Assembly: GCF_009363795.1 (NCBI RefSeq)
Contig: NZ_CP045420.1
Span: forward strand, 2,585,001-2,649,000
Reading direction: 5' to 3'
DNA: 64,000 bases
DNA from: Palleronia sp. THAF1
Lineage (GTDB): Bacteria; Pseudomonadota; Alphaproteobacteria; Rhodobacterales; Rhodobacteraceae
Under the pieces are notes generated by a model. The model saw only the letters and a list, made by a program, of their open reading frames with translations, searched no databases and was not told the origin of the DNA. Positions within the stretch are counted from its first letter, which is position 1. Every line of letters starts with the position of its first letter. The translations under genes and the position numbers were made by a program. This document shows positions 18,198 to 57,599 of this stretch, in pieces.

Positions 18198-18231
18198 TGG
18201 TATACCATGTCAAGATTTTTGGTATACCAAA
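18198..18231. promoter_or_regulatory. Two TGGTATACCA operators before the acid-sugar operon
   Basis: Perfect 10-base palindromes TGGTATACCA lie at 18198-18207 and 18220-18229; the second extends to TTTGGTATACCAAA. Their centres are 22 bases apart, about two helical turns, so two dimers could bind the same face. The second site ends 21 bases before the GTG start of the L-threonate dehydrogenase-like gene, a position suited to repression. The motif matches the known UxuR/ExuR-type GntR operator core and recurs at 40.1, 44.07 and 57.5 kb. Confidence 0.85.
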
Positions 18232-18252
18232 TCAAGCAGGGGAGATTTCGCC

Positions 18253-19158
18253 GTGGATACACCATCGAAGGTTGCCGTCATTGGCCTGGGCTCCATGGGG
18301 TATGGCATCGCCGCTTCTGCCTTGCGGGGTGGCCATCACGTCTGGGGCTTTGACGTCAACACGACCCCGGCCGACCGCTTTCGCCAAGAGGGCGGAGCAG
18401 AGGGTACGTTGGCCGATGTCGCCGATGGCTTGGATGTCGCGATACTTGTGGTGTTGAACGCAGCGCAGACCGAAGAGGTGTTGTTCGGCGCAGATGCGCT
18501 GGTGCCCCGGTTGCGGCAGGGCGCCGTCGTCATGTCTTGCGCGACCGTGCCGCCGCAATTCGCGCGCGACATGGAAACGCGCTGTTCAAAGGCCGGTGTA
18601 CTCTACCTGGACGCGCCGATCTCTGGCGGCGCGGTCAAGGCAGCAAGTGGCGATCTGACGATCATGGCATCGGGACCGGATGCGGCCTTTGCGGCGGCGC
18701 GACCCGTCTTGGATACCGTCGCGGCGACCGTGTTCGAGCTTGGCGACAGCGCCGGGCCGGGATCCGCGATGAAGGCGACGAACCAGTTGCTGGCGGGCGT
18801 CCACATCGCGGCGATGGCCGAAGCGCTGACCTTCGGTATGACCCAAGGCGTGACGCCGGAGGCGTTCCTCAAGGTGATCTCGAAATCCGCAGGCACCAGC
18901 TGGATGCTGGAGAACCGCGCCCCCCACGTGATCGACGGCGACTACACGCCGCGCAGTTCGGTCAACATCTGGCCCAAAGATCTGGGGATCGTGCTGGAGA
19001 TCGCGGAAGACGCAGGCTTCGACGCGCCGATCACCGCGACCGCGCTGGCGCAATACGGCAAGGCGGTCGAGATGGGGTTGGGCGGCGTGGATGACGCGGC
19101 GGTGGCCAAGGTCTACGCGCGGCAGGCGGGCCTGACCCTGCCCGGAGAAGACGAATGA
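18253..19158 (+). CDS. ltnD: L-threonate dehydrogenase-like (3-hydroxyisobutyrate dehydrogenase family)
   Basis: A 301-residue beta-hydroxyacid dehydrogenase. The Rossmann motif GLGSMGYGIA begins at about residue 10, substrate loop DAPISGGAVKAASG is near residue 119, and the catalytic Lys is in MKATNQLLAG near residue 175. LtnD oxidises L-threonate to 2-oxo-tetronate. The LtnD assignment rests mainly on the following otnK, otnC and otnI genes, because family members are hard to separate by eye. The start is GTG, with GGGGAG seven bases ahead. First gene of a chain in which most stops overlap the next start, under two TGGTATACCA operators. Confidence 0.8.
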   Translation: MDTPSKVAVIGLGSMGYGIAASALRGGHHVWGFDVNTTPADRFRQEGGAEGTLADVADGLDVAILVVLNAAQTEEVLFGADALVPRLRQGAVVMSCATVPPQFARDMETRCSKAGVLYLDAPISGGAVKAASGDLTIMASGPDAAFAAARPVLDTVAATVFELGDSAGPGSAMKATNQLLAGVHIAAMAEALTFGMTQGVTPEAFLKVISKSAGTSWMLENRAPHVIDGDYTPRSSVNIWPKDLGIVLEIAEDAGFDAPITATALAQYGKAVEMGLGGVDDAAVAKVYARQAGLTLPGEDE

Positions 19159-20423
19159 CCACCGTTCTGGGCTGCATCGCGGATGATTTCACCGGGGCAA
19201 CCGATCTTGCGGGGCTGCTCGCGCGCTCTGGTGTAAAGGTATCGCTGCGGATGGGCGTGCCTGATGAGACGCCATCCGAGACCGCACCGTTCGAGGTGAT
19301 CGCCCTGAAAATCAGAACCGTCCCGGTGGATCAGGCCGTTGCGCAGGCGCTGAATGCACTGGAATGGTTGCAGGCTGCGGGCGCGCAGCGGTTCTTTTGG
19401 AAGTACTGTTCGACCTTCGACTCCACGGCGGATGGCAACATCGGACCGGTGGCGGAAGCGTTGATGGACGCGCTGGGGTCCACGCAAACGATCTACTGCC
19501 CCGCTTTCCCCGAAAACGGGAGGGCGATCTTCATGGGCAACCTGTTCGTGGGCCAGCAGCCCTTGGCCGAAAGCCCGATGAAGGACCATCCGCTGACGCC
19601 CATGCGCGATTCCAGCCTGATCCGGCTGCTGAAGCCGCAGGTGACACACCCGGTTTGCCTGGCTGACAGGCTTACGGTGGCAAAGGGGGCGGAAGCCCTA
19701 CGCGATCACCTGAGCTACCTGTCGTCGGAAGGTGTTGCGCATGTGATCGTCGATGCGGTCGCCGATGAGGATCTGAAGACCATCGCGGAGGCCTGCCACG
19801 ACATGCCGTTGATGACCGGCGGTTCTGCACTGGCGATGCCGCTGCCAGCGTTGTTCGCAGCCGATGGCCTGTTGGCCGCCGATGCGCCCGGCATGCTGCA
19901 CCCCGATCTTGGGCCGGGCGCCGTGGTGCTGTCGGGCAGTTGCTCGGCGATGACCAATCAGCAAGTCGCCAGCTACTTGGCGACGGGCGCCGCCGCCTAT
20001 CGGTTGGACCCGCTGGAACTGGCCGAGCGCGGGCCCGACGCCGCCGTCGCATGGATCGCAGCACAGGATCTGACGAAAACCCCCCTGATCTATGCCACTG
20101 CCGATCCAGCGTCCGTGCGCGCAGCGCAAGAGAGGCTGGGCGTCGAGCGGGCCGGGGCCATCGTGGAAGACGCACTTGCCGCCTGTGCCCTGGCCGCGCG
20201 AGACGCGGGCGCGCGTCGGTTCGTCGTCGCTGGTGGCGAAACCTCGGGGGCCGTGACGCAGGCGTTGGGTGTGGACCGGCTGGATATCGGAGCCGAGATC
20301 GCGCCGGGGGTGCCGTGGTGCTTTGCCGTGTCTGAGGGCACGCCCATTGCGCTAACGCTGAAATCCGGCAACTTCGGAGCCGAGACGTTCTTTGCCGACG
20401 CCCTGTCGAAGCTGACCCCATGA
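19155..20423 (+). CDS. otnK: 3-oxo-tetronate kinase
   Basis: A 422-residue four-carbon acid-sugar kinase (DUF1537 type). The N-terminal substrate domain starts GCIADDFTGATDLAGLL, with the FWKYCSTFDST block near residue 78. The C-terminal nucleotide domain has VLSGSCSAMTNQQV near residue 257 and VVAGGETSGAV near residue 358, the ATP-binding segment. OtnK phosphorylates 3-oxo-tetronate at C4. It overlaps both neighbours by ATGA, and with LtnD, OtnC and OtnI forms the known L-threonate/D-erythronate route to dihydroxyacetone phosphate. Confidence 0.85.
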   Translation: MTTVLGCIADDFTGATDLAGLLARSGVKVSLRMGVPDETPSETAPFEVIALKIRTVPVDQAVAQALNALEWLQAAGAQRFFWKYCSTFDSTADGNIGPVAEALMDALGSTQTIYCPAFPENGRAIFMGNLFVGQQPLAESPMKDHPLTPMRDSSLIRLLKPQVTHPVCLADRLTVAKGAEALRDHLSYLSSEGVAHVIVDAVADEDLKTIAEACHDMPLMTGGSALAMPLPALFAADGLLAADAPGMLHPDLGPGAVVLSGSCSAMTNQQVASYLATGAAAYRLDPLELAERGPDAAVAWIAAQDLTKTPLIYATADPASVRAAQERLGVERAGAIVEDALAACALAARDAGARRFVVAGGETSGAVTQALGVDRLDIGAEIAPGVPWCFAVSEGTPIALTLKSGNFGAETFFADALSKLTP

Positions 20424-21070
20424 GCGAAGAGGCCCGCCTGCGCGACCTGATTTGCCTGTTGGCCAAGTCGATGTTCGACCGGGGGCTGACGGGTGGATCG
20501 ACCGGCAACATCTCTGCCCGCACGCCCGACGGTGGTCTGCTGGTGTCGCCCACGGGCACATCGTTCGGGCGGCTCGATCCCGCGCGACTGTCACGCTTCG
20601 ACTCGGATGGAAGGCTGATCGACGGAGACGCACCGACCAAGGAAATGCCGCTACATACCGCGTTTTACGATACGCGCAGCACGGCGGGCGCGGTGGTGCA
20701 TCTGCATTCCTGCCACTCGGTCGCGTGGTCGATGATGCCGGACGCGAATGAGGATGACTTCCTGCCGCCGCTGACCCCCTACGCAATCATGAAGCTGGGC
20801 CGCGTGAAGCTACTGCCGTTTTTCCTGCCCGGCGATCCCGCGATGGGAGAGGCCGTGCGCGGACTGGCGGGCAAGCGCAGCGCGGTGATGCTGGCGAACC
20901 ACGGGCCTGTCGTCGCGGGCAAGGATGTGGAAGCCGCCTGCAACGCTGTGGAAGAGCTGGAAGACACCGCGCGACTGGCGATGCTGATGCGGGGATATGA
21001 CGCGCGCGCGTTGACGCCCGAACAGGTGCAGGCGGTTGTCACGAAATTCGATGTGGAGTGGGACGGATGA
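20420..21070 (+). CDS. otnC: 3-oxo-tetronate 4-phosphate decarboxylase (class II aldolase family)
   Basis: A 216-residue class II aldolase/adducin-fold protein. GSTGNISAR near residue 31 and the phosphate-site region VSPTGTSFG are followed by the zinc-binding HLHSCHS near residue 94 and LANHGPVV near residue 158. OtnC decarboxylates 3-oxo-tetronate 4-phosphate to dihydroxyacetone phosphate. Adjacency to OtnK and OtnI separates it from L-fuculose- or ribulose-phosphate aldolases of the same fold. Four-base overlaps link it to both neighbours. Confidence 0.85.
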   Translation: MSEEARLRDLICLLAKSMFDRGLTGGSTGNISARTPDGGLLVSPTGTSFGRLDPARLSRFDSDGRLIDGDAPTKEMPLHTAFYDTRSTAGAVVHLHSCHSVAWSMMPDANEDDFLPPLTPYAIMKLGRVKLLPFFLPGDPAMGEAVRGLAGKRSAVMLANHGPVVAGKDVEAACNAVEELEDTARLAMLMRGYDARALTPEQVQAVVTKFDVEWDG

Positions 21071-21840
21071 AGTTCTCGGCCAACCTTGGGTTTCTATGGA
21101 CCGACCGCCCCCTGCCAGATGCGATCCGGGCGGCCCATGCAGCAGGCTTCGACGCGGTGGAATGCCATTGGCCGTATGACGTGCCGGCGGCAGAGGTGAA
21201 GGCGGCGCTAGATCAGACCGGATTGAGGATGCTGGGCCTTAACACCCGGCGCGGCGATGTGGCAGGCGGCGAGAACGGGGTAGCCGCCCTGCCCGGTCGC
21301 GAGGAAGATGCGCGCGCGTTCATCGACGAGGCGTTGGCCTATGCCGTGCAGATCGGCGCGGGCTGCATACATGTGATGGGCGGGTTCGCGCGCGGTGACG
21401 CGGCGCTGGCGGCCTACGTCTCTAACCTGCGCTACGCCTGCGATGCCGCTGCGCCGCAGGGGATCACGATCCTGATCGAGCCCCTGAACCGCCATGACGC
21501 GCCCGGCTACGTCCTGCGCACCACGGATCAGGCCGCGGAAATCATCGAGGCCGTCGGCGCGGCGAATCTGAAGATCATGTTCGACTGCTACCATGTCGGG
21601 CGCACTGAAGGCGACGTGACCACCCGCCTGCGCGCGCTGTTGCCGATGGTGGGGCATATCCAGTTCGCCTCTGTCCCCGACCGGGGCACGCCGGATCATG
21701 GAGAGCTGGACTACGCCTACGTCTTCGCCGCCATCCGCGATCTGGGGTGGGAGGCACCGCTGGGTGCCGAATACAAATCGGCAAAGCCGACCGATGAGAC
21801 GCTGGCTTGGCTGGCCCCGATACGGGAGCGGTTCGCATGA
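21067..21840 (+). CDS. otnI: 2-oxo-tetronate isomerase (hydroxypyruvate isomerase family)
   Basis: A 257-residue TIM-barrel protein of the Hyi/OtnI family. It opens KFSANLGFLWTDRPLPDAI; the metal-site Glu is in LIEPLNRHDAPGY near residue 140, followed by MFDCYHVGRTEGD near residue 178 and GHIQFASVPDRGTPDHGELDY near residue 200, with a last Glu in GAEYK. OtnI interconverts 2-oxo- and 3-oxo-tetronate. The ATG at 21067 overlaps the otnC stop; a start nine bases earlier is possible but less natural. A hydroxypyruvate isomerase activity is the main alternative. Confidence 0.83.
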   Translation: MKFSANLGFLWTDRPLPDAIRAAHAAGFDAVECHWPYDVPAAEVKAALDQTGLRMLGLNTRRGDVAGGENGVAALPGREEDARAFIDEALAYAVQIGAGCIHVMGGFARGDAALAAYVSNLRYACDAAAPQGITILIEPLNRHDAPGYVLRTTDQAAEIIEAVGAANLKIMFDCYHVGRTEGDVTTRLRALLPMVGHIQFASVPDRGTPDHGELDYAYVFAAIRDLGWEAPLGAEYKSAKPTDETLAWLAPIRERFA

Positions 21841-23084
21841 CCACCCGGATTGAAGCCGACTACCTGATCGAAACGCCTGTCGATCCTGCGAAGGCTGCTG
21901 CGGCGATGGCGGGCGAACAAAGCTCTGGCACCTTCGTTGCCGTGCCCGGAGAGACGCCCGAGTTGCACGAACGCTCTGCCGCGCGGGTCGAGGCATTGGA
22001 GGTCGTGGAAACGGTCGATGCCCCGTCGTTGCCCGGCGGGGCCACGGGCGACAGCTACACCCGCGCGCGCGTCACCCTGTCGTGGCCGTTGGACAACATA
22101 GGACCGGACCTGCCGAACCTGATGGCCACGGTCACGGGCAATCTGTTCGAGTTGAACCAGTTTTCCGGCCTGCGCATCCTCGATCTGCGGCTACCGGAAG
22201 CGTTCGCCGATGCCTACCCCGGCCCGAAGCACGGCATCCCCGGCACGCGCGATCTTGCTGGCGTGGCCGAAGGCCCGCTGATCGGGACGATCATCAAGCC
22301 CTCTGTCGGATTCAACGCAGAGCAGACCGCCGATCTGGTTGGCACGCTCTGCGATGCGGGCATCGATTTCATCAAGGACGACGAGTTGCAGGCCGACGGC
22401 CCGGCCTGCCCCTTCGAGGACCGCGCCCGCGCGGTAATGCGCGTGGTGAACGACCACGCCGACCGTACGGGCAAGAAGGTCATGTATGCCTTCAACCTGA
22501 CCGGAGAAGTCGATCAGATGCGCCGCCGTCACGACCTGATCCGCGAACTGGGGGGAACCTGCGTGATGGTCTCGCTCAACTCGGTCGGGCTGTCGGGTTT
22601 TCTGGGCCTGTCGCGCCACGCAGACCTGCCGATTCACGCGCATCGGAACGGCTGGGGGTATCTCAGCCGCGCGCCGATGCTGGGATGGGACTATGCCGCG
22701 TGGTCGAAGTTCTGGCGGCTGGCGGGCGCGGATCATTTGCACGTCAACGGCTTGCGCAACAAGTTCAGCGAGCCGGACGACAGTGTAATGGCCTCGGCCC
22801 GGTCGCTGTTGGAGCCGATGTTCGAGAGCAAGCCGTGCGTTCCGATGCCGGTGTTTTCGTCCGGGCAGTCGGCGGTGCAACCGCCGGAGACTTACCGTCA
22901 GCTGGGCAGTGCCGATTGCATCTACGCGGCGGGCGGTGGGATCATGGCGCACCCCGGCGGCGTGGCGGCGGGCTTGCAAAGCCTGCGTGACGCGTGGGAT
23001 GCGGCCATCGCGGGCGTTTCGGCGGATGACTACGCCAAGGACCACCCGGCGCTGGCCGCAGCACTCGGCAAATATCGCGCATGA
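21837..23084 (+). CDS. RuBisCO-like protein, probable 3-oxo-isoapionate-4-phosphate decarboxylase or transcarboxylase/hydrolase
   Basis: A 415-residue form IV RuBisCO large-chain homologue. The first active-site Lys is K154 in GTIIKPSVGF. The carbamylated-lysine metal site is intact as K180, D182, E183 in FIKDDEL. HAHRNGWG, HVNGLRNKF, VFSSGQS and GGGIMAHPGG match the substrate- and phosphate-binding segments. Several loop positions differ from true RuBisCO, and no small-subunit or phosphoribulokinase gene is near, so this is not CO2 fixation. Placed between OtnI and an OiaK-type kinase and next to an ApnO-type enzyme, it fits OiaX (giving L-erythrulose 1-phosphate plus CO2) or OiaT (giving 3-phosphoglycerate plus glycolate). 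The sequence alone does not choose. Confidence 0.85.
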   Translation: MTTRIEADYLIETPVDPAKAAAAMAGEQSSGTFVAVPGETPELHERSAARVEALEVVETVDAPSLPGGATGDSYTRARVTLSWPLDNIGPDLPNLMATVTGNLFELNQFSGLRILDLRLPEAFADAYPGPKHGIPGTRDLAGVAEGPLIGTIIKPSVGFNAEQTADLVGTLCDAGIDFIKDDELQADGPACPFEDRARAVMRVVNDHADRTGKKVMYAFNLTGEVDQMRRRHDLIRELGGTCVMVSLNSVGLSGFLGLSRHADLPIHAHRNGWGYLSRAPMLGWDYAAWSKFWRLAGADHLHVNGLRNKFSEPDDSVMASARSLLEPMFESKPCVPMPVFSSGQSAVQPPETYRQLGSADCIYAAGGGIMAHPGGVAAGLQSLRDAWDAAIAGVSADDYAKDHPALAAALGKYRA

Positions 23085-24406
23085 GCCTGCCGGACGGCAT
23101 ATTGATCGGCTGGGTCGGCGATGACTTCACCGGATCGGCGGCGAGCATGGAGGTGCTGGAGTTTTCTGGTGTGCCCGCGGTTCTGTTTCTGGACGTACCG
23201 ACGCCGGAGCAACTGGCGCGGTTCCCGGACGTGCGCGCGGTCGGCGTCGCCACGACCGCGCGCAGCCATGCGCCAGATTGGATGGACCGCCATCTGCCGC
23301 CGATTTTCGACTTCCTGCGTAAGACAGGCGCGCCGGTCATCCACTACAAGACCTGCTCTACACTAGATTCCGCGCCGCATGTGGGATCTATCGGCAGGGC
23401 GATAGAGATCGGACAGGGGGCGGTGGGCAGCGATACCGTGCCGTTCCTCGTCGCCGCGCCGATCATGCGGCGCTATCAGGCGTTCGGGCATCTGTTCGCA
23501 AGCGCTGGCGCGGACGTGTATCGGCTGGACCGGCATCCGGTAATGGCCCGCCATCCGGCCACGCCGATGACCGAGTCCGACGTGGCGCGGCATCTGTCAG
23601 CACAGACGGATTTGCCGGTCGGTGTGCAGACGGTCGAGGATCTGGAGCGCGACGCGCCCACTTTTCTAGCAAACGGCGGTATCGTCACGCTGGACGCGAT
23701 GACCGACTCACACATGGGAACGAACGGCGCGCTGATCTGGGCCCGGCCTCAGCCCTGTTTCGTCGCCGGATCACAGGGCATCGAATACGCATTGATCGCG
23801 CATTGGCGGGCGACTGGCGACCTGCCGCACACCGTCCGCACCGACGGCGTCGGCTCCGTGGATCGCATCGTCGCGGTGTCGGGCTCCGTCTCGCCCACCA
23901 CCGCCGATCAGATCGCCTGGGCCGGGGCGAACGGGTTCGAGGTCATCGCGCTGGACGCGGCGTCCGTCGTCGCGGGCGGCTCGGCGGACGCCACGTTCGA
24001 CGCTGCGATCCGCGCGCTGGAGGCGGGCCGCGACCCGCTGATCTGCACCGCGCGGGGGCCGGACGATCCGGCGGTTGCACGAATGAAAGCGGCCTGCGAC
24101 GGGATCGACGCAGAGACCGCGAACGCCCGCATCGGGGCGGCGCTGGGGCAAGTGCTGAAACGCATTCTGACGCAGACTGGCCTGACCCGCGCCGTCATTT
24201 CTGGCGGTGACACATCGGGCCACGCCTGCCGCGAGTTGGGGCTGTTCGCCTTTACCGCGCTGGCCCCGACCATCCCCGGCGCGGCGCTGCTACAAGCGCA
24301 CTCCGACGACCCCGCGCTGGTGGGTCTGCAACTGGCGCTGAAGGGCGGGCAGATGGGAAGCGACGATTATTTCGGCTGGATCAAACGCGGCGGTGGGGCC
24401 GCCTGA
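23081..24406 (+). CDS. oiaK: Four-carbon acid-sugar kinase family, probable 3-oxo-isoapionate kinase
   Basis: A 441-residue DUF1537-type kinase, clearly different from otnK four genes before. It opens LIGWVGDDFTGSAASMEVL, has HYKTCSTLDSAPHVGSIG near residue 88, and carries AVSGSVSPTTADQI near residue 264 and ISGGDTSGHACRELG near residue 373 in the ATP-binding half. The position after the RuBisCO-like gene (ATGA overlap) and before the oxidoisomerase gene matches OiaK, which phosphorylates 3-oxo-isoapionate to the RLP substrate. That assignment is from context; the kinase fold is direct. Confidence 0.8.
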   Translation: MSLPDGILIGWVGDDFTGSAASMEVLEFSGVPAVLFLDVPTPEQLARFPDVRAVGVATTARSHAPDWMDRHLPPIFDFLRKTGAPVIHYKTCSTLDSAPHVGSIGRAIEIGQGAVGSDTVPFLVAAPIMRRYQAFGHLFASAGADVYRLDRHPVMARHPATPMTESDVARHLSAQTDLPVGVQTVEDLERDAPTFLANGGIVTLDAMTDSHMGTNGALIWARPQPCFVAGSQGIEYALIAHWRATGDLPHTVRTDGVGSVDRIVAVSGSVSPTTADQIAWAGANGFEVIALDAASVVAGGSADATFDAAIRALEAGRDPLICTARGPDDPAVARMKAACDGIDAETANARIGAALGQVLKRILTQTGLTRAVISGGDTSGHACRELGLFAFTALAPTIPGAALLQAHSDDPALVGLQLALKGGQMGSDDYFGWIKRGGGAA

Positions 24407-24417
24407 TGGAGAGAGAC

Positions 24418-25260
24418 ATGACAAAAGTTGCACTGCTGGGCGCGGGCGGAAAGATGGGCGTGCGTCTGGCGCAGAACCTCAAGCCGACGCGGTTCGAGAT
24501 CGACCACGTGGAGGTCAGCGAAGCTGGGCGCCAGCGTCTGAAGGACGAGGTTGGCGTGGATGCCGTGACCGATGGCGACAACGCGATCTCCGACGCTGAC
24601 GTGGTGCTGATGGCGGTGCCCGACCGGCTGATCGGAAAAATCGCCCATGGCTTCGTCGAAAAGCTCAAGCCCGGTGCCGCCGTCATCGTGCTGGACGCCG
24701 CCGCCCCCTACGCGGGCGAGATGCCCAAGCGCGATGATGTCACCTATTTCTGCACGCACCCCTGCCATCCGCATATTCTGGAGCCGCACGACAGCATCGA
24801 GGCGCAGAAGGACTACTTCGGTGGCATCGCAGCCCCGCAAGGGATCGTCTGCGCGCTGATCCAAGGGCCGGAAGAGCACTATGCCCTGTGCGAAGAGATC
24901 GCCAAGATCATCTACGCGCCGGTCGCCCGCTCGCACCGCTGCACGCTGGAGGGGATCGCCATTCTGGAGCCTGCCCTGTCCGAAACGGTCGCCGCCACCA
25001 TGGCGCTGGCCCTGCGCGACGCGACGGACCGCGCGGTGTCCATGGGCGTGCCGGAAGCCGCGGCGCATGACTTTATTCTGGGTCACCTGAAGATCGAACT
25101 GGCCATCGCCTTCGGTATCTTCCCGGAGGGCAAATTCTCGGACGGAGCATTGATGGCTATCGACAAGGCGAAGTCGGTCATCTTCAAGGAAGACTGGTTG
25201 GATCAGATCTTCTCGCTCGATGCGGTGAAGACGTCCGTGAAAGACATCTGCGCCGGATAG
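24418..25260 (+). CDS. apnO: D-apionate oxidoisomerase-like dehydrogenase
   Basis: A 280-residue Rossmann protein beginning KVALLGAGGKMGVRLAQNL. It has DAADVVLMAVPD-like and LDAAAPYAGEMPKRDD segments, then the distinctive FCTHPCHPHI (residues about 115-125) and a helical C-terminal domain. This matches the phosphogluconate-dehydrogenase-like family in which ApnO oxidises and rearranges D-apionate to 3-oxo-isoapionate. Start at 24418 with GGAGAG six bases ahead; an ATG at 24406 overlaps the kinase stop but leaves no ribosome site. Adjacent OiaK-type and RLP genes supply the next two steps. Confidence 0.78.
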   Translation: MTKVALLGAGGKMGVRLAQNLKPTRFEIDHVEVSEAGRQRLKDEVGVDAVTDGDNAISDADVVLMAVPDRLIGKIAHGFVEKLKPGAAVIVLDAAAPYAGEMPKRDDVTYFCTHPCHPHILEPHDSIEAQKDYFGGIAAPQGIVCALIQGPEEHYALCEEIAKIIYAPVARSHRCTLEGIAILEPALSETVAATMALALRDATDRAVSMGVPEAAAHDFILGHLKIELAIAFGIFPEGKFSDGALMAIDKAKSVIFKEDWLDQIFSLDAVKTSVKDICAG

Positions 25261-42538: not shown

Positions 42539-42862
42539 TCAGGTCAAGAGGAATTGCATCAGATACAACGCGCCCATCCCCGCCACGATGGCCCAGATCA
42601 CGCCGAAGCGCAGACCTGCCACGAAGGCCGCGACGGCGGCGATCATGCGGATGGGATCGGGGGTGCCGCCCGTCGCTTCTGGCCACACGACCAGCGGCAC
42701 GAAAAGCGCCGGGAAGACCGCGACACCGACATAGCGCAGGTAAAGCAGCGCCCAGTCGGGCAGCCTGCGTCCGCCCAGAAGGCCAAGGAACGAAAATCGG
42801 ATCAGGAAGGTGCCAAGGCCCAGCAGCAGGGTCAGCACCCAGAAAGAGGTCGTGTCGATCAT
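42539..42862 (-). CDS. azlD: AzlD-family branched-chain amino acid exporter subunit
   Basis: A 107-residue protein with three to four helices (FWVLTLLLGLGTFLIRFSF, LLYLRYVGVAVFPALFVPLVV), the usual size of AzlD. It pairs with AzlC to export branched-chain amino acids or analogues such as azaleucine. The ATG overlaps the azlC stop. Confidence 0.85.
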   Translation of the reverse strand: MIDTTSFWVLTLLLGLGTFLIRFSFLGLLGGRRLPDWALLYLRYVGVAVFPALFVPLVVWPEATGGTPDPIRMIAAVAAFVAGLRFGVIWAIVAGMGALYLMQFLLT

Positions 42863-44070: not shown

Positions 44071-44080
44071 TGGTATACCA
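44071..44080. promoter_or_regulatory. TGGTATACCA operator between the exported protein and the IlvD/XylD-like gene
   Basis: A perfect palindrome (TTTGGTATACCATTT in context), 47 bases before the dehydratase ATG and 43 bases before the divergent GTG start. Same core as the other five sites in the window. Confidence 0.82.
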
Positions 44081-45909: not shown

Positions 45910-45925
45910 ACGAAGGCGAGACAGC

Positions 45926-49196: not shown

Positions 49197-50258
49197 TCAT
49201 ACGCCAGTATAATCGCCGGGCACCTGCCCCGCGCGCACAGGCCTGCCCTGTTGTGCGGACAAGGCGGCTGCCAGCGTCATCTCCAACGCCTTCATGCCAT
49301 CCGCGCCCGTACACAGCACGTCGTCTTCTGCTCCACCGACCACGCCGGCGAAACGGGTGATCTGTTCCAGCAGCGGATCGACCGTGTCGCAATGCGGGCC
49401 ATCGCGGCGCGTCAGCGGCTTGGACCACTCGACCTCTCCGGGATCGGAGCGGCCCCAGAAGGTCAGCGATGGAAACTCCAGCGAGCCCAGCGTGCCGACG
49501 AACCGCAGGTAATCCTGCCCCGATGGCGCGATGGCCGGATTCTCGGCGGTCGCGGACTCAAACGACCAAGGTGACGCGCCCGCGTCGGAAATCAGGAACG
49601 AGCCCAAAGCGCCGCTTTCGAACCGCAAGGCGAGGGCGGAAGTATCCTCGACCATCAGCCCGCGCCGCGCGTTGGATGTCAGCGCGGTGATCTCATCGAT
49701 TTCGCCAAGGAAGAAACGCAGGAGGTCCAACTCATGCGTCAGGTTGGTCAGCAGTGGGCCAGCGCCGGGAAGGCGCCGCCATTGTGCGTCGTAATAGGTG
49801 TCGTGTTTGCGCAGGGACCACATGCCCTGAACGCCGACGACATCGCCGATCTGCGTCAAGGCCTCGCGCGTGGCGCGCGAAAACGGATGGCAGCGGCGGT
49901 GGTGGCCGGTGAATAGCGGGACGCCCCTGTCGGCGGCGCGAGTCACGATATCCGTCGCCTGATCCATCGTCCCGGCGACAGGCTTTTCGACGATCACCGG
50001 CCAGCCCCGGTCGATGCATGCCAACGCAGAGGCATGGTGGTCCTGCGTCGGCGTGGCGAGGATCGCGGCGCGCGTCTCGTCGGGTACGTCATCCAACGTC
50101 GCGACCGCGTTCAGCCCCATGGACCGCAGTTCGGCCCGCCGCGCAGCCACCGGCTCGACCACCGCCGCGATGCGGGTCGCCGCACATTCCTGCGCCACCT
50201 GCACATGCCGCATCCCGATGGAACCTGCGCCGATGATGACGACCGGCAGTTGGCTCAC
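49197..50258 (-). CDS. Gfo/Idh/MocA-family oxidoreductase
   Basis: A 353-residue protein. VVIIGAGSIGMRHV is the Rossmann site, VEKPVAGTM near residue 95 is the family EKP motif, and HHRRCHPF and GPLLTNLTHELDLLRFFLG (in parts) carry the conserved His and Asp residues of the second domain. It oxidises a sugar or cyclitol. The start is GTG overlapping the stop of the altronate dehydratase gene; an ATG-started extension into that gene is not credible. Confidence 0.85.
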   Translation of the reverse strand: MSQLPVVIIGAGSIGMRHVQVAQECAATRIAAVVEPVAARRAELRSMGLNAVATLDDVPDETRAAILATPTQDHHASALACIDRGWPVIVEKPVAGTMDQATDIVTRAADRGVPLFTGHHRRCHPFSRATREALTQIGDVVGVQGMWSLRKHDTYYDAQWRRLPGAGPLLTNLTHELDLLRFFLGEIDEITALTSNARRGLMVEDTSALALRFESGALGSFLISDAGASPWSFESATAENPAIAPSGQDYLRFVGTLGSLEFPSLTFWGRSDPGEVEWSKPLTRRDGPHCDTVDPLLEQITRFAGVVGGAEDDVLCTGADGMKALEMTLAAALSAQQGRPVRAGQVPGDYTGV

Positions 50259-51745
50259 ATCACGGCCCCGACCTGCCACGGCACGAATTCGTAGTCGCCA
50301 AGGCCTTGCGCTTCGGACTTCGAGGCTTCGCCCGATGCCATGCGCAACCACATCTCGTAGATCTCGCGGCCCACCTCTTCGACGCTGGCGCCGTGCGACA
50401 GGATGGTGCCCGCGTTCACGTCCATGTCCGATGTCAGGCGCTGGAACATCTGCGTGTTGGTGGCGACCTTCATCGTCGGCGCGGGCTTAGAGCCGAAGGC
50501 CGATCCCCGCCCGGTGGTGAAGCAGACAAGATTGCAGCCACTGGCGATCTGGCCGGTGACGCTGGCCGGGTCGTAGCCGGGGCTGTCCATGAAGGTGAAG
50601 CCACGGGTGGTGACGGGTTCGGCGTATTTGAACACGCCGGTCAGGGGGGTCGTGCCGCCCTTGGCCGCAGCCCCAAGCGACTTCTCAAGAATCGTCGTCA
50701 GCCCGCCCGCCTTGTTTCCGGGGCTGGGGTTGTTGTCCATGTTGCCGCGATTGCGGCTGGTGTAGTCCTGCCACCACTCGATCAGGCCGATCAGTTTGTC
50801 GCCCACGGCGCGATCCGTCGCGCGGGCGGTCAGCAGGTGTTCGGCGCCGTAGATCTCTGGTGTTTCGGCCAGCACACCGGTGCCGCCCTGCGCCACCAGC
50901 AGATCGCAGGCATGACCGACCGCCGGGTTCGCGGTGATGCCCGACCACGCGTCAGAGCCGCCGCATTGCAGGGCGACCATCAGTTCAGAGGCTGGGCATT
51001 CCTCACGCTGCACATCATTAACCAGCGGCAGCATCGCCTCGATCTTCTTGATTCCCAATTCAACCGTGGTGCTCAGGCCGCCCACGTCCTGGATGTTCAT
51101 TGCCTGAAACAGCGGGCCGGGGGTCAGGCCGTAGGCTTCGATCAGCCAGTCGATCTGCATCATCTCGCAGCCCAGACCCGCCATCAGCACGCCGCCCACG
51201 TTCGGGTTGCGCGCATAGCCCCAAAGGGTGCGTTGCAACAGCTCGAAGCCCGTGCCGTCCCCGCCCATGGCGCAGCCGGTGCCATGGACGAATGCGGCGA
51301 CGCCGTCGACGTTGGGATAATCCGCCAGCTTGTCCGGCGTGAAGTGTCCTGCGATCATCCGGGCGGCGGTGGCCGAACAATTTACCGAGGTCAGAACGGC
51401 GATGTAGTTGCGCGTACCGACCCGTCCGTTGGACCGGCGATAGCCCTTGAAGGTGTCCCGCTGCGTGGCAGGCACGACCGGGCGCAGGTTGGTCGAGAAT
51501 TCGTACTCCGTATCCACATTGCGGAACTCTAGGTTCTGTGTGTGAACGTGTGCGCCTTTCGCGATGTCTTCCGCTGCATAGCCGATGACCTGCGCGTATT
51601 TGTGGACGGGTTGGCCCTTGGCGATATCCACCGTCGCCATCTTGTGGCCGCGCGGGATCAGTTGGGTCGCCCCCTCCTGCCCCACTTCCAGCGGTGTGAT
51701 CGCAGTGACGACGTTGTCTTCGGGGGACAGGCGGACAGTGTTCAT
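50255..51745 (-). CDS. uxaA: Altronate dehydratase family protein (UxaA type)
   Basis: A 496-residue full-length UxaA-type dehydratase. The N-terminal SAF domain (NVVTAITPLEVGQ to GHKMATVDIAKGQPV, in parts) is joined to the SDH/altronate core with GYRRSNGRVGTRNYI near residue 100, HGTGCAMGG near residue 153, LQCGGSDAWSG near residue 262 and PTMKVATNT near residue 430. It dehydrates D-altronate or a related hexonate to 2-keto-3-deoxygluconate. Presence of a hexuronate-type enzyme in a transcript with a UxuR-like operator is consistent. Confidence 0.82.
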   Translation of the reverse strand: MNTVRLSPEDNVVTAITPLEVGQEGATQLIPRGHKMATVDIAKGQPVHKYAQVIGYAAEDIAKGAHVHTQNLEFRNVDTEYEFSTNLRPVVPATQRDTFKGYRRSNGRVGTRNYIAVLTSVNCSATAARMIAGHFTPDKLADYPNVDGVAAFVHGTGCAMGGDGTGFELLQRTLWGYARNPNVGGVLMAGLGCEMMQIDWLIEAYGLTPGPLFQAMNIQDVGGLSTTVELGIKKIEAMLPLVNDVQREECPASELMVALQCGGSDAWSGITANPAVGHACDLLVAQGGTGVLAETPEIYGAEHLLTARATDRAVGDKLIGLIEWWQDYTSRNRGNMDNNPSPGNKAGGLTTILEKSLGAAAKGGTTPLTGVFKYAEPVTTRGFTFMDSPGYDPASVTGQIASGCNLVCFTTGRGSAFGSKPAPTMKVATNTQMFQRLTSDMDVNAGTILSHGASVEEVGREIYEMWLRMASGEASKSEAQGLGDYEFVPWQVGAVM

Positions 51746-51766: not shown

Positions 51767-52708
51767 TCAGGCGCAGGCGGGGCTGTCGCTTTTCCAACGG
51801 TGGATCGGGATGTGTGGCTGACCGCCCAAGCGCAGGCGCGCATCGCGCCACATGTCCCGCCAAACCTGCCAATCGGTCAAAACACGTTCAGGATGCGCAT
51901 GGGAGCGGGCGACGAACTCTGGGAAGTGCGACCGGCCCGTGGGTTGCCCGGTGACGTTGTAGCGTACATCGAAGGACCAGCGGAACCGGTCCGATGTATT
52001 GTCCAAAGAGGCATGCGGCGTCAGCGGATGGAAGATGACCGCGCCACCCGCCTTGACCGGAAGCGGCTGTGCTTTTTCCAGATCGAGGCAGCCGTCCGCG
52101 ATGGCCGTCTGCTTCTTTGGGCAATGCGGATACATCTGCGGCTTGCCGGGGATCACCTGAAGGCAACCATTCTCCACAGTCGCATTGGAGATCGCCAGCC
52201 AAACCGTGACCATCTGCGTGCCGTCGCCGTCTGCGTGCGCGACGGCACGATCCTGATGCCAGTCGGTCGCCATGACATGGGCGCGGTTTTCAGAACCGTT
52301 CAGCGTCGGCGCAGGGGGCTTGAGGCGGACGTGCTGGATGGGATTTGATGTCAGTTCCGGCCCGATCAGCGACTCCACCAGATCCAGCAAGTGCGGCGCT
52401 GTTATCATGTCGAACACCGCAGGCCCGAAGTGGAACGGCGTATCCGGCGCGATGTCTCCGCCGGGCAACGAGATATCCATAGGCTGGAACCAGTCGCAGC
52501 CCGCGTCGTAGCTGGTCAGCAGCTTTTGCCAGAAGTCCATGTCGCCCGGCGGGGGCACCCGTCCTTCGGCGTGCCAACCGTCATACAAGGTGTCGAGCAG
52601 GTCTTCGTACTCGCGCTTCACACTGTTGAGGATCGGCATGGGCAGAACGTCAGGCACGACGATTACGCCGTTGGTGTTGAAGTCGTCGATCTGTTGCTGC
52701 GTCAGCAT
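51767..52708 (-). CDS. Phytanoyl-CoA dioxygenase (PhyH) family protein
   Basis: A 313-residue non-haem iron, 2-oxoglutarate dioxygenase. The Fe ligands are the His and Asp in WHQDRAV near residue 164, and the distal His in HPLTPHASLDN near residue 230; an Arg in RWSFDVRY would bind 2-oxoglutarate. It starts LTQQQIDDFNTNGVIVVPD as the family does. It hydroxylates an unknown substrate; its place among sugar-acid genes suggests a small carbohydrate or compatible solute. Start at 52708 behind GGGAGT. Confidence 0.85.
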   Translation of the reverse strand: MLTQQQIDDFNTNGVIVVPDVLPMPILNSVKREYEDLLDTLYDGWHAEGRVPPPGDMDFWQKLLTSYDAGCDWFQPMDISLPGGDIAPDTPFHFGPAVFDMITAPHLLDLVESLIGPELTSNPIQHVRLKPPAPTLNGSENRAHVMATDWHQDRAVAHADGDGTQMVTVWLAISNATVENGCLQVIPGKPQMYPHCPKKQTAIADGCLDLEKAQPLPVKAGGAVIFHPLTPHASLDNTSDRFRWSFDVRYNVTGQPTGRSHFPEFVARSHAHPERVLTDWQVWRDMWRDARLRLGGQPHIPIHRWKSDSPACA

Positions 52709-52719
52709 GGCGAAACTCC

Positions 52720-53805
52720 CTAGACTTTGACGGATTCCAGTTTGTCCCAATCGAACACCACCCCATGGCCGGGACGATCGGGCGCAATGGCGTGGCCGTC
52801 TTCGATCTGCAGCGGCGTCTCGACATAGTTTTCCAGCCCAAAGCCGTGCGCCTCCAGATACGAGCGGTTCGGACAGGCGGCGAGCAGGTGCACCGTGATG
52901 TCATGCGCGCCGTGGCTGGTGACGGGCAGGTGGAACGCCTCTGCCAGCCGCGCGATCTTCATGAAGGGCGTGACGCCACCGCAGTTGGTGACGTCCGGCT
53001 CTGGGAAGGTCACACCGCCTTCGATGGCTGTGCGGAATTCCCACAACGAGCGCAGGTTCTCACCCGCCGCGATTGGGATGCCGCCTTCTGTCAGGATGCG
53101 ACGATGGCCGGCGGGGTCCTCTGGCGGGATGGGTTCCTCGAACCACGTCAGGTCGAATTCCGCGTAGGCCTTGGCCGCGCGCACGGCACCGTCGACGGTG
53201 AATTTCATGTTCGCGTCAGCCATCAAGGGCATGTCTGGCCCAAAAGCATCGCGCAGGGCGGCAAGCTTGGCCACATCCTCTCGCAGCAGATCCCGGCCCA
53301 CCTTCATCTTGATGGCGCGGTGGCCCTTGGCGCGGTTTTCATGCGTCTGCTCGACCAACTCCGACGGCGTCAGGTGAATGTCGATCCCGCCAGCATAACA
53401 GGGCACCCGCGCGTCGAACCCACCCAACAGACGCCACAGGGGCAGATCCGCGCGTTTCGCCTTCAGATCCCACAGCGCCATATCCAGCGCCGAAAGCGCC
53501 AGCACCGTTGGCCCGCCACGTCCGCCGTAGTGGAAGGCCCACCATAGGTCCTTCCAGATCGCCTCGATCAGCGATGGATCGCGGCCGAGCACCAGCGGGG
53601 TCATCTCGCGGGCGAGAATGTCGGCGATGGCCCCGCCGTTCACACCGCAGGTAAAGGTATAGCCTACGCCCGTCGCCCCGTCGCTGTCGGTCACGCGGGC
53701 GGTGACGACCTCGAACGCGGTCATCGTGCCGTGCATGCTGTCTTCCAGCGCCACTGGCAGCGGGATCAGGTAGTGGTCGGTCTTCACGCTGGCGATAGTG
53801 GTCAT
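52720..53805 (-). CDS. Mandelate racemase/muconate lactonizing enzyme family (enolase superfamily) dehydratase
   Basis: A 361-residue enolase-superfamily protein. The barrel residues are KMK in AIKMKVG near residue 167, metal ligands Asp in MADANMKF near residue 196, Glu in WFEEPIPP near residue 222, and Glu in AGENLRS near residue 247, with the His-Asp dyad in SHGAHD near residue 298. This residue set suits acid-sugar dehydration by proton abstraction. The sugar acid is unknown; L-fuconate or L-rhamnonate-type acids would match the KDF-dehydrogenase-like and Lra6-like genes nearby. Confidence 0.85.
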   Translation of the reverse strand: MTTIASVKTDHYLIPLPVALEDSMHGTMTAFEVVTARVTDSDGATGVGYTFTCGVNGGAIADILAREMTPLVLGRDPSLIEAIWKDLWWAFHYGGRGGPTVLALSALDMALWDLKAKRADLPLWRLLGGFDARVPCYAGGIDIHLTPSELVEQTHENRAKGHRAIKMKVGRDLLREDVAKLAALRDAFGPDMPLMADANMKFTVDGAVRAAKAYAEFDLTWFEEPIPPEDPAGHRRILTEGGIPIAAGENLRSLWEFRTAIEGGVTFPEPDVTNCGGVTPFMKIARLAEAFHLPVTSHGAHDITVHLLAACPNRSYLEAHGFGLENYVETPLQIEDGHAIAPDRPGHGVVFDWDKLESVKV

Positions 53806-53879
53806 GGCGCGGTCCGCAAATTGCAAAAGGGGCGGAACGCGCCCGCCCCCTTGGGATGTCTAGAATGCCGGCCCTGCGA

Positions 53880-55505
53880 TCACAGGAAGATCGACACGAT
53901 GGGCGGCCAGATCAGCAGGACCGACAGTGCCACAAGTTGCAGCGCGATGAACGGCAGGAAGCCCCGGAAGATCGCCGTCAGCGTGATGTGCGGCGGTGCG
54001 ACCGACTTCAGGTAGAACGCCGCAGGGCCGAAGGGTGGCGACAGGAAGCTGACCTGCATGTTCATGCAGAACACCACACCGAACCAGATTGCCACGTGAC
54101 GCGGCTCCAACTCTCCGAAGATGCCGATTTCCGCTACGGGAAGTTTCAGCACGATGGGCAGGAACACCGGCATGATCAGCAACACGATGCCGACCCAGTC
54201 CATGAACATCCCCATGATCAGGAAGATCAGCATCATCACCAGGATGATCGACATGGTGGGCAGTTCCGCCGCGATGATCAGGTTGGCCACGTAGGTCGGA
54301 CCGCCGGACAGGGTGTAGGCCGCTGCCAGCGCCGCCGCACCGATGGTCACCCAGATGATCGTGCCGGTGGATTTCAGCGTGCGGATCAAGCTGTCCCACA
54401 CGATCTCGAACGTCATCTCGCCGCGGACAAGGCTGATGGTGAAGACGGCAACGACGCCCATGCCAGCGGCTTCCGTAATGCCGGTGATGCCCATGTAGAT
54501 GGATCCCAGAACCACGCCGATGACGATGACGGGCGCGATCAGGCCCTTGCCCATGTCCCAGCCGGTGGCGACACGCTCTTTGCCGATGGCGAACATCGCG
54601 GCGAACAGCGCGCCGAAGAAGCCCGCGATCCAGGGCAGGTCGGACACCATGCCCAGCGCAATGGGGTCTTCGCCCGGTTGCAGGGTGTTCTGTCCGGTGA
54701 CGGTGAAGAACAGTGCGCGCAGGAACAGCACGCCGGTGACCCACAGGCCGAACTTCGTCAGGAAGCCCAGAAACATCAGACCCTTTTCACGTCCGTGCGG
54801 CTCATCGGGGTCGATGGGCGGCAGCGGGGCCAGCGACGGGTTCACCCGCGTGCGGATAAGGATGTAGACGATGAAGAACGACGCCAGCATGAAGCCCGGC
54901 AGGAAGGACGCGGTGAATAGCGCCTTGATCGAGGTTTCGGTGACGAGGCCGTAGAAGATCAGAACGATGGACGGCGGGATCATCGTGCCCAAGGAACCAG
55001 ACGCACAGATCGTGCCGATGGCAAGGTTCTGATCATAGCCCAGCCGCAACATCTGCGGCAGCGCGATCAGGCCCAGCAGCACGACTTCACCGCCGATGAT
55101 GCCCGACATGGCGGCCATGATGACGGCCATGATCGAGGTCACGACAGCAATGCCGCCCCGCGTGCCCGACAGCCACACGTTCAGTGAAGAGTACATGTCC
55201 TTGGCGATGCCGGAGCGTTCCAGCAGGGCCGCCATGAAGATAAACAATGGAATTGATATCAGGACGTAGTTGGTCATCTGCCTGTAGACCGCCTGGCCCA
55301 GCACAGACATCGGCCCTGCCCCGAAGTCGCGGAATAGAAGTTCCGGACCGAACTTCATGATAAGAACGGCAACCGCCAGAAAGGCCGAAGCAAAGCCAAG
55401 CGGCATGCCGATGGCCAGCAGGAAGAACATCGCCAGTAGCAGGATGATGCTCAGCGTTCCGATGTCGGGGACCTTCATCCACGAGAGCATGCTCAGGAAT
55501 TCCAT
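53880..55505 (-). CDS. dctM: TRAP transporter large permease (DctM)
   Basis: A 541-residue membrane protein of about twelve to fourteen helices. IPLFIFMAALLERSGIAKDMY near residue 80 (in parts), SGIIGGEVVLLGLIALPQM, ASGSLGTMIPPSIVLI near residue 157 and MDWVGIVLLIMPVFLPI are DctM hallmarks. With DctP and DctQ it imports carboxylates or sugar acids using the sodium gradient. Slightly longer than the usual 430 residues because of an extra segment around residues 250-330. Start at ATG 55505; GTG 55511 lies closer to GAGG and is possible. Confidence 0.88.
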   Translation of the reverse strand: MEFLSMLSWMKVPDIGTLSIILLLAMFFLLAIGMPLGFASAFLAVAVLIMKFGPELLFRDFGAGPMSVLGQAVYRQMTNYVLISIPLFIFMAALLERSGIAKDMYSSLNVWLSGTRGGIAVVTSIMAVIMAAMSGIIGGEVVLLGLIALPQMLRLGYDQNLAIGTICASGSLGTMIPPSIVLIFYGLVTETSIKALFTASFLPGFMLASFFIVYILIRTRVNPSLAPLPPIDPDEPHGREKGLMFLGFLTKFGLWVTGVLFLRALFFTVTGQNTLQPGEDPIALGMVSDLPWIAGFFGALFAAMFAIGKERVATGWDMGKGLIAPVIVIGVVLGSIYMGITGITEAAGMGVVAVFTISLVRGEMTFEIVWDSLIRTLKSTGTIIWVTIGAAALAAAYTLSGGPTYVANLIIAAELPTMSIILVMMLIFLIMGMFMDWVGIVLLIMPVFLPIVLKLPVAEIGIFGELEPRHVAIWFGVVFCMNMQVSFLSPPFGPAAFYLKSVAPPHITLTAIFRGFLPFIALQLVALSVLLIWPPIVSIFL

Positions 55506-55511
55506 TGTCAC

Positions 55512-56312
55512 TTACCTCAGCGTCTTGCGGATGTTTTCGATCTCGACTTCGTCCATATCGTCGAGGGACAAATGCTCAGGGGCCTTGTTCCAGTCGGCGA
55601 TGATGTTCGACAGCGCCTGCAGCGCAACGAGACAGATGATGATCAGGATGGCGCCCTTCAGGATGCCCGGAATGGGCGGATCCCACGCGGTGCCGAAGGT
55701 CTCCATTCGCAGGAAGCGGCGCATGGCGTCATCGTAGCCGCCCCAGACCATTGCAAAGGTGAAGAACCAGATCAGGAACAGCGAGATGATGTCCGAGACC
55801 TTCTGAAAGAAGCGGGGCATCATGTCGTAGATCACGTAGATGCGAATGTGGCTGCGCTGCTGCATGGCGTAAAGGCCCGCAAGCAGGAACACGAAGCTGG
55901 CCATGAAGAGAGACAGCTCGTTCGCCCAAAGCGTCGGGCGCGCGAAGACGTAGCGAGAGACGACCTCGTAGAACATGACCAAAACGGTCAAGGCGACAAG
56001 GATCATCGCGACCCGCGACAGGACGAGGGATATGATGTCGAACACGCCGTCGGGATGATACTCGATCGCGCCACGGCTGTCGGACAGGTAAAGCGACAGG
56101 GTCAGGACGGTGCCCAGTATCACGAACAGCATCAGCTGAACCATCGGGCGACCCTCGGGGCGGATCATCTCGTACATTCCGATGGAGTCTTCAGTCAGCA
56201 GGCGGTTGGCGATCAACCAAACGTACAGAACGGCGAAGACGGCGGAAAATCCGATTGCGGCCATGCGTATCGGCTTGCGCATCGGACCCAGCCAAAGGCT
56301 TTCCTGATTCAT
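55512..56312 (-). CDS. dctQ: TRAP transporter small permease (DctQ), enlarged
   Basis: A 266-residue membrane protein. The last 170 residues are a normal DctQ (four helices; VMFYEVVSRYVFARPTLWANEL, in parts, is the family signature near residue 128). About 95 extra N-terminal residues carry two more helices (AAIGFSAVFAVLYVWLIAN and MVQLMLFVILGTVLTLSLYL, in parts). Usual DctQ proteins have 160-180 residues. It stops seven bases before the chosen dctM start. Confidence 0.85.
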   Translation of the reverse strand: MNQESLWLGPMRKPIRMAAIGFSAVFAVLYVWLIANRLLTEDSIGMYEMIRPEGRPMVQLMLFVILGTVLTLSLYLSDSRGAIEYHPDGVFDIISLVLSRVAMILVALTVLVMFYEVVSRYVFARPTLWANELSLFMASFVFLLAGLYAMQQRSHIRIYVIYDMMPRFFQKVSDIISLFLIWFFTFAMVWGGYDDAMRRFLRMETFGTAWDPPIPGILKGAILIIICLVALQALSNIIADWNKAPEHLSLDDMDEVEIENIRKTLR

Positions 56313-56376
56313 CCTGACAATCCCCCGAAGAAAGCGGGCCCGTTGGCGGCCCAAGGTAACGGCACATCTGGAGAAC

Positions 56377-57461: not shown

Positions 57462-57507
57462 GGTTATTCCTCCCTAAGCGGCTCTGCGTGGCCACCTGTC
57501 TTAAATT

Positions 57508-57525
57508 GATGCAGTCGAGTGCATC
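57508..57525. promoter_or_regulatory. GATGCA / TGCATC inverted repeat before dctP
   Basis: Perfect arms GATGCA (57508-57513) and TGCATC (57520-57525) around GTCGAG, 46 bases before the dctP start. A second palindrome type in this promoter, distinct from TGGTATACCA; it might bind another GntR protein. Confidence 0.45.
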
Positions 57526-57533
57526 GCGACGAA

Positions 57534-57599
57534 TGGTATACCATCCTGACAAAACCGTAGCGAACGAAATCTCGACACGCAACGTTTTTTGGTATACCA
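57534..57599. promoter_or_regulatory. Two TGGTATACCA operators in the dctP / GntR divergent promoter
   Basis: Perfect palindromes at 57534-57543 and 57590-57599, centres 56 bases apart. The left copy is 72 bases from the dctP ATG and the right copy 69 bases from the GntR ATG, an almost symmetric layout. This allows control of the TRAP operon and autoregulation of the GntR gene. Confidence 0.85.

Follow-up and report, generated by a model that had tools for sequence, protein, structure and literature searches.

The ExuR regulator is a member of the GntR/FadR subfamily with an acid-sugar ligand, and the core of the Escherichia coli UxuR operator is presumably the palindrome TGGTATACCA, as a sequence-only reading of the present DNA also stated. 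In our study, six copies of this palindrome were analysed in a 64,000-nucleotide stretch of Palleronia sp. THAF1 (contig NZ_CP045420.1, positions 2,585,001 to 2,649,000; hereafter the window, in whose coordinates all positions are given). They are very probably the operators through which a GntR/FCD repressor encoded at 57669-58400 would control the promoters of an acid-sugar gene cluster. A local regulon of about 33 genes around this protein is predicted.

FadR-subfamily operators have been described as palindromes with TKGT/ACMA boxes in A/T-rich surroundings, and for the gap between GT and AC, lengths of 2 nt (UxuR) and 3 nt (ExuR) are given (PMC4494728). The window palindrome shares with UxuR the GntR-type symmetry, the 2-nt gap and the association with acid-sugar catabolism, whereas it differs from ExuR in the spacing (PMC4494728). 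The label 'UxuR/ExuR-type' of the sequence-only reading hence fits the UxuR spacing and not that of ExuR, and by NCBIfam the 57669 protein is neither of the two, scoring 32.4 bits with the Uxu regulator model (cut-off 442) and 38.9 bits with the ExuR model (cut-off 396). The best NCBIfam hits for the scanned window proteins did not include UxaC, UxuA or UxuB, the genome as a whole not having been searched for them. The UxuR system of Rhodobacteraceae was set aside as a match for this locus, as it has an ABC transporter and UxaC (PMC5507952, which also describes GguR). AraR2 of Halomonas likewise heads a predicted GntR-family regulon with an acid-sugar dehydratase and a TRAP transporter, but is restricted to L-arabinonate (PMC5507952). 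VdtR of Brucella governs D-erythronate and L-threonate catabolism and is a DeoR-family, not a GntR, protein (PMC10580937). Route III pathways combine an acid-sugar dehydratase, a short-chain dehydrogenase/reductase (SDR) acting as 4-dehydrogenase and an FAH/MhpD-family hydrolase, as the present cluster may also do, and the Herbaspirillum cluster contains a COG2721 (UxaA/GarD-superfamily) dehydratase; the transporter there is of ABC type, whereas a TRAP transporter is present here and the hydrolase lies below its NCBIfam cut-off (PMC6336799, PMC11199699). For the D-apiose cluster of Rhodobacteraceae strain LCG007 no regulator is named in the available description, and in comparison to it the homologues in the window fall below the equivalog cut-offs and are located behind ltnD-otnKCI (PMC11747546). 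No regulon of such a kind is listed in the available part of PMC5343134. No description of this regulon was found among the matches listed in the openly licensed literature, and the matches listed for the operator string held no title on bacterial gene regulation.

The operators and the proposed repressor gene are located as follows.

18198..18207, no strand: operator 1 of the ltnD promoter, TGGTATACCA, exact match
18220..18229, no strand: operator 2 of the ltnD promoter, 22 bp after operator 1, exact match
40125..40134, no strand: operator of the lysE / HIBADH-like divergon, exact match
44071..44080, no strand: operator of the xylD-like / azlCD divergon, exact match
57534..57543, no strand: operator on the dctP side, exact match
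57590..57599, no strand: operator on the gntR side, 56 bp from its dctP-side partner, exact match, spacing conserved
57669..58400, + strand: GntR/FCD regulator, proposed repressor, PF00392 and PF07729

The sequence-only reading had given these six operator positions, and all of them are exact; the rest of the 64-kb window holds no other TGGTATACCA-like place within one mismatch, and no copy appeared in 100 dinucleotide-shuffled versions of it. It had also proposed a genome scan for intergenic versus coding hits, which was run with exact and one-mismatch patterns. Over 3,340,253 bases in 2 contigs, the six copies, all within the window, were the only exact ones, and 24 further one-mismatch places were found in comparison to 43 for a reversed control pattern. 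These 24 places look like background, 20 being inside called open reading frames (ORFs) and 4 outside. Six such sites far exceed what chance would give, and they are confined to this gene cluster. By the same ORF caller, four of the six exact sites are outside called ORFs and two inside. The first of these two, 40125, is within a called 89-aa ORF (40022-40291) which overlaps the Pfam-supported lysE (to 40028) as well as the HIBADH-like start (40224), while 44071 is at the extreme 5' end of ORF 43566-44081, which no longer includes the site when its GTG start at 44027 is used; both were therefore judged intergenic. Since the caller is a simple heuristic based on GC content at third codon positions (GC3), gene starts and coding or intergenic labels are approximate.

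The placement of the sites between genes and near start codons, as first read, is borne out, since start codons lie 28-102 bp from all six. The distances from site centre to the chosen start codon are 28 and 50 bp for ltnD, 94 for the HIBADH-like gene and 101 for lysE, 52 for the xylD-like gene and 48 for the small ORF opposite, and 77 for dctP and 74 for gntR. Four promoter regions are indeed present, but one is unidirectional and three are divergent, so the 'four promoters' of the sequence-only reading could serve seven transcription units. The 22-bp pair 18198/18220 precedes nine genes, from ltnD to an HpaI-type aldolase. Site 40125 is between the lysE-GlcD-like oxidase-FAH-denD group and a HIBADH-type dehydrogenase, and site 44071 between a small protein-azlC-azlD-RraA group and an IlvD/Edd dehydratase with an SDR. 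The 56-bp pair 57534/57590 separates a ten-gene TRAP operon from gntR-FAH hydrolase-lysR. Operon membership was assigned from strand and spacing. The flanking sequences differ among the six window sites; over 138 distinct sites, A or T adjoins the core in 91%, with a weaker bias at the next two positions. The TGGT-AT-ACCA core with its A/T-rich flank places the palindrome in the FadR-subfamily operator class as defined in PMC4494728.

The 57669 protein belongs to the GntR/FCD family (PF00392 61.9 bits and PF07729 91.4 bits, both above cut-off). Its predicted structure (predicted local distance difference test, pLDDT, 92.1) has the GntR/FCD fold and matches 9isw (AlkR/VanR; template-modelling (TM) scores 0.77/0.89); it also resembles TM0439 (3fms/3sxy), and the title of entry 3sxy is that of a metal-binding FCD regulator. 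Residues D129, H133, H177 and H199 are invariant in 9 orthologues. In 32 homologues, no variation is seen at H133 and H177 and hardly any at H199; D129 is listed as neither invariant nor nearly invariant. Residues of this type presumably bind a metal together with a carboxylate ligand, and an acid-sugar-derived effector would fit these candidate metal ligands of the FCD domain. Eight FCD matches are present in the genome, two of them halves of one place, and as there is no exact site outside the cluster, only the 57669 gene has exact sites in its own promoter.

The regulator and the operator were found to occur together across genomes. With an orthologue defined as a match to the 57669 protein at E<=1e-45, 45 of 295 genomes of the family have one. 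The 12-mer TTGGTATACCAA, present in 47 of the 295, is found in 30/45 genomes with an orthologue and in 17/250 without (Fisher p 3e-18; 29/44 versus 17/250 when the own genome is excluded), and at least two copies occur in 21/45 versus 2/250. On a recount, 26 of the 32 genomes whose orthologue is at least 50% identical carry the 12-mer, and 13 of the 15 orthologue genomes lacking it have the 10-mer. In a set of 60 genomes including our own, three or more hits of the 11-mer (both strands summed) were seen only in the own genome and in 9 with orthologues of 53-62% identity, each of the remaining genomes having at most one. The same trend was observed in 80 named loci from a scan of GTDB species, where the exact TGGTATACCA is present in 21 of the 22 loci with an orthologue (a homologue of at least 41% identity) and in none of the 58 with more distant homologues. 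These 22 loci are mostly from Rhodobacteraceae, with Roseivivax, Sulfitobacter, Donghicola, Salipiger, Paracoccus and Thalassobacter among the genera. An exact site lies within 320 bp upstream of gntR in 16 of them, and in a further three, L154, L157 and L161 (all Paracoccus), a site pair precedes an xylD-led gene run that includes gntR. Among the orthologue loci L108-L133, of about 3.6 kb each, 23/26 have a site.

The promoter layout is conserved as well. Divergons of dctP and gntR were collected from 19/26 of loci L108-L133, 17/22 of the named loci, 7 stretches of relatives and the window, and were counted only where both genes were in one fetched locus, so that for example G004 and G015 drop out. 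In the resulting 44 divergons, 43 of them distinct (L125 duplicates L164; L085 and L103 are 96% alike), at least one exact site is present in 43 and two sites in 33, with a spacing of 54-60 bp in 31 of these 33. Where divergons had been fetched by gene match alone, 35/36 have a site. A constant inter-site distance in such divergons has been read as pointing to cooperative control of the two operons (PMC4494728), and the conserved spacing of about 56 bp is suggestive of such control here. In the examined stretches of relatives, exact sites occur within 300 bp upstream of 22/23 XylD copies and upstream of DctP in 35/36 and GntR in 35/42 cases; the downstream operon genes in these stretches had none (GarD 0/24, FAH281 0/28, EamA 0/29, OtnK 0/9). 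G135, of another genus, has sites at all four promoter regions, including 55- and 22-bp pairs, the latter before ltnD. In G233, four promoter regions have sites, oiaX replacing ltnD, and in G325 four regions and one more. In G133 and G076, sites are found at the dctP/gntR, xylD and HIBADH regions and beside a 2-hydroxyacid dehydrogenase, with none before ltnD in the fetched stretch. In G233 and L144, a 23-bp pair directly precedes the gene run oiaX-oiaK-apnO, which in L147 is found past the TRAP genes and on their strand; by these layouts the Oia/Apn module is linked to the operator in several arrangements. The co-occurrence, the autoregulatory position and the layout conserved in other genera strongly support the 57669 protein as the binder, and with it the single regulon that the sequence-only reading had proposed under this protein.

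Several observations weigh against this assignment. Just 4 of the 13 genomes whose orthologue is below 50% identity have the 12-mer, 2/45 orthologue genomes lack even the 10-mer, and in several of those without the 12-mer, the 10-mer lies at a distance from the gene and is no more frequent than the reversed control. Conversely, 17 genomes without an orthologue at the threshold carry TTGGTATACCAA; at least G260 and G138 among them have closer homologues by profile, that of G138 being on the contig of the site. L119, L126 and L129 have no site in 3.6 kb, and L152 (Hoeflea, orthologue 59% identical) has none in 20.6 kb. In L155, the only site, upstream of gntR, has one mismatch; weaker sites are missed when an exact core is required. 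Sites are less kept at LtnD (8/13), OiaX (2/4), LysE (4/13) and HIBADH1 (4/14), and also at GntR with the 35/42 given above. Some stretches were fetched around sites, and the per-gene and regional counts of relatives are thus partly selected. Site spacing is not correlated with intergenic length (r -0.07), which is weak evidence because the lengths span just 180-249 bp. A scan of 57440-57700 for sigma-70-like promoters found no match.

From the computed sites, their exclusivity, the co-occurrence with the regulator and the conserved architecture, we infer binding, repression, effector, substrates and operon extents as follows. A GntR dimer would bind each palindrome and act as a repressor: the 56-bp pair would serve the TRAP operon and the repressor's own operon, the 22-bp pair the ltnD-led operon, and one central site each the lysE/HIBADH and xylD/azlCD divergons. 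Release may be caused by an acid-sugar-derived carboxylate, perhaps a 2-keto-3-deoxy acid, which is proposed because of the pathway enzymes and the candidate metal ligands D129, H133, H177 and H199. Uptake, four-carbon (C4; threonate/erythronate) breakdown, the Oia/Apn-type module and dehydratase-led pentonate/hexonate breakdown, about 33 genes, would then be induced jointly.

The sites at 48-102 bp upstream of start codons in three promoter regions would fit either sign of control, and the regulator may activate or do both, for example repressing its own gene and activating transport. This is unlikely, as FadR-subfamily regulators with such a layout are mostly repressors, and a block of transcription would be the more natural effect of the ltnD sites, given that their centres are 28 and 50 bp from the start codon.

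Repression through the 57669 protein also has to be weighed against binding by another GntR/FCD protein of the same genome, in which FCD matches occur at about seven places, one of these genes (28819-29502) being within the 40-kb span of the sites. Two of the five closest relatives of the 28819 protein, in G007 and G015, come from genomes with sites, but both genomes also hold a 57669 orthologue. Homologues of the 28819 protein (E<=1e-30) are present in 35/60 genomes; the closest outside our own, in G033 (61%), is in a genome without the 11-mer, and a single hit is present in each of G029 and G014, whereas the sites track orthologues of the 57669 protein. The 8.9-kb block 26998-35896 that contains the 28819 gene, between HpaI and DenD, is tricarballylate-type and has no TGGTATACCA site. 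HpaI and DenD nearly adjoin in G135, G233 and G076 (gap of about 60-150 bp), by which the block resembles an insertion into the regulon, and the sites persist in these relatives although the block is missing. The 28819 gene, which has no nearby site, was set aside as the binder, and another GntR/FCD protein in this role is very improbable.

Six identical 10-mers within 40 kb might also be copies spread by promoter-DNA duplication or recombination with no present regulatory role. This origin was rejected, with hardly any likelihood left to it, because the flanks differ among the six sites, other genera retain sites at the corresponding promoters, the 44 divergons have 43 distinct upstream sequences, and the inter-site spacing is mostly 54-60 bp. 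Chance or composition was dismissed as a practically negligible explanation, with no copy in the shuffles and none in the other 3.28 Mb of the genome.

Further observations were made in relatives. In G008, G013, G010, G004 and G011 (loci L089, L106, L083, L084, L092 and L098), other contigs carry single sites that coincide with, or lie close to, the start of a further DctP-like (60-63% identity) or HIBADH-like gene (59-64%), by which the regulon may extend past the cluster there. L144, labelled as an Oceanospirillaceae metagenome-assembled genome, has DctP, OiaX and ApnO homologues 75-83% identical to those of the window, and is either a mis-binned contig or a case of transfer. In G176 (C3:23727), an exact 12-mer is within about 255 bp upstream of a different GntR/FCD homologue (C3:22912-23472), which is possibly a second regulator with the same operator.

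The other genes of the cluster are given below; bit scores are those of the named profile.

18253..19158, + strand: LtnD, L-threonate dehydrogenase, NCBIfam NF043037 413.7 bits, cut-off 350
19155..20423, + strand: OtnK, 3-oxo-tetronate kinase, NF043035 550.9 bits, cut-off 350
20420..21070, + strand: OtnC, 3-oxo-tetronate 4-phosphate decarboxylase, NF043034 289.8 bits, cut-off 250
21058..21840, + strand: OtnI-like 2-oxo-tetronate isomerase, NF043033 267.1 bits, below cut-off 325
21807..23084, + strand: OiaX-like RuBisCO-like decarboxylase, NF042437 456.7 bits, below cut-off 700
23081..24406, + strand: OiaK-like kinase, NF042436 440.8 bits, below cut-off 700
24406..25260, + strand: ApnO-like oxidoisomerase candidate, PGDH_C domain, Pfam PF16896 197.4 bits
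25282..26220, + strand: D-2-hydroxyacid dehydrogenase, below equivalog cut-offs
26228..26998, + strand: HpaI/GarL-type aldolase, TIGR02311 296.7 bits, below cut-off 368.8
35896..36861, - strand: DenD, D-erythronate dehydrogenase, NF043036 387.3 bits, cut-off 325
36899..38041, - strand: FAH-family protein, 380 aa, PF01557 32.8 bits, cut-off 23.9
38053..39450, - strand: GlcD-like FAD oxidase, TIGR00387 349.9 bits, below cut-off 567.9; start approximate, a longer ORF to 39837 overlapping lysE
39426..40028, - strand: LysE-type exporter, PF01810
40224..41147, + strand: HIBADH-family dehydrogenase, profile match
41823..42686, - strand: RraA-like protein, PF03737, called start probably too far upstream
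42539..42868, - strand: AzlD, PF05437
42859..43632, - strand: AzlC, PF03591
43566..44027, - strand: small protein, no Pfam match, same-place homologues in e.g. G135 and G233
44128..45909, + strand: IlvD/Edd-family acid-sugar dehydratase (XylD-like), NF009560 1002.5 bits, cut-off 684; nearest PDB entries 5oyn and 7m3k
45821..46663, + strand: SDR oxidoreductase, profile match
46670..47557, - strand: EamA-family transporter, PF00892
47571..48293, - strand: SDR, nearest PDB L-2-keto-3-deoxyfuconate 4-dehydrogenase (8XWK/8Y4J)
48290..49180, - strand: HIBADH-family dehydrogenase, profile match
49197..50351, - strand: Gfo/Idh/MocA oxidoreductase, profile match
50255..51745, - strand: GarD/UxaA-family dehydratase, TIGR03248 378.2 bits, below cut-off 730.85
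51767..52750, - strand: PhyH-family dioxygenase, profile match
52720..53826, - strand: mandelate racemase/muconate lactonizing (MR/MLE)-family dehydratase or cycloisomerase, profile match
53880..55511, - strand: TRAP large permease DctM, TIGR00786 231.4 bits, just below cut-off 268.45
55512..56354, - strand: TRAP small permease DctQ, PF04290
56448..57461, - strand: TRAP solute-binding protein DctP, NF037995 107.9 bits, cut-off 50
58342..59187, + strand: FAH-family hydrolase, NF053535 384.3 bits, below cut-off 500, nearest PDB 8gsr
59184..60155, + strand: LysR-family regulator, profile match

In the predicted regulon, TRAP uptake stands beside L-threonate/D-erythronate catabolism, an Oia/Apn-like module, several acid-sugar dehydratases and a 4-dehydrogenase-hydrolase route. 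L-threonate/D-erythronate catabolism is the best-founded assignment at the level of profiles, with LtnD, DenD, OtnK and OtnC above their cut-offs and OtnI below (267.1 vs 325). The D-apionate breakdown proposed by the sequence-only reading stands as a family-level assignment with a putative substrate, as the OiaK-like and OiaX-like proteins (440.8 and 456.7 bits) are below the equivalog cut-offs of 700; the Oia/Apn module may still work like the D-apionate pathway. The link of PF16896 to ApnO, which follows the label of the earlier reading, is presumptive. The SDR at 47571, nearest to the 4-dehydrogenase, the FAH hydrolase at 58342, nearest to L-2,4-diketo-3-deoxyrhamnonate hydrolase (8gsr), and three dehydratase types (IlvD/Edd, GarD/UxaA and MR/MLE) together resemble a Route III pathway. 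Route III ends in pyruvate and glycolate or lactate (PMC6336799), and the GlcD-like oxidase at 38053 would be compatible with glycolate use. The best match of DctP among solved structures is 4pe3, which has a generic name and no ligand indicated.

The 40-kb acid-sugar region of the sequence-only reading is not uninterrupted, as 26998-35896 is a different gene block without a site. This block contains a TcuA-like dehydrogenase, the second GntR/FCD gene, an AbrB-type protein, a TctA transporter and two-component genes. The TcuA-like FAD protein is split over two neighbouring ORFs (27405-28793), and at 33372-35644 the receiver and effector of a response regulator, and the sensor and HATPase of a histidine kinase, are apart; either decay or sequencing frameshifts may be responsible.

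Our study points to a real, conserved local regulon of the ordinary GntR kind, with unusually broad acid-sugar modules predicted behind one operator. For the use of acid sugars in Rhodobacteraceae, it yields a regulator with its proposed operator and about 33 candidate genes that can be tested. In relatives, uncharacterized genes can be assigned to the regulon by means of the operator, for example additional TRAP binding proteins and dehydrogenases located on other contigs. With C4, branched and longer acid sugars grouped under one switch, their common inducer could be sought directly. As a more tentative proposal, which we hold to be somewhat doubtful, one FCD regulator, operator and inducer might form a widespread Rhodobacteraceae switch treating C4 (threonate/erythronate), branched apionate-type and C5/C6 (aldonate and aldarate) acid sugars as one nutrient class despite their chemical differences, with modules exchanged behind the operator and the double operator of about 56 bp coupling transporter and regulator cooperatively.

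Beyond the lysR gene, window positions 60152-63737 hold SDR, LtnD-like and split transketolase genes without a site. In L147 and L160, an exact site precedes a homologue of the transketolase gene (TKn) from this part of the window.

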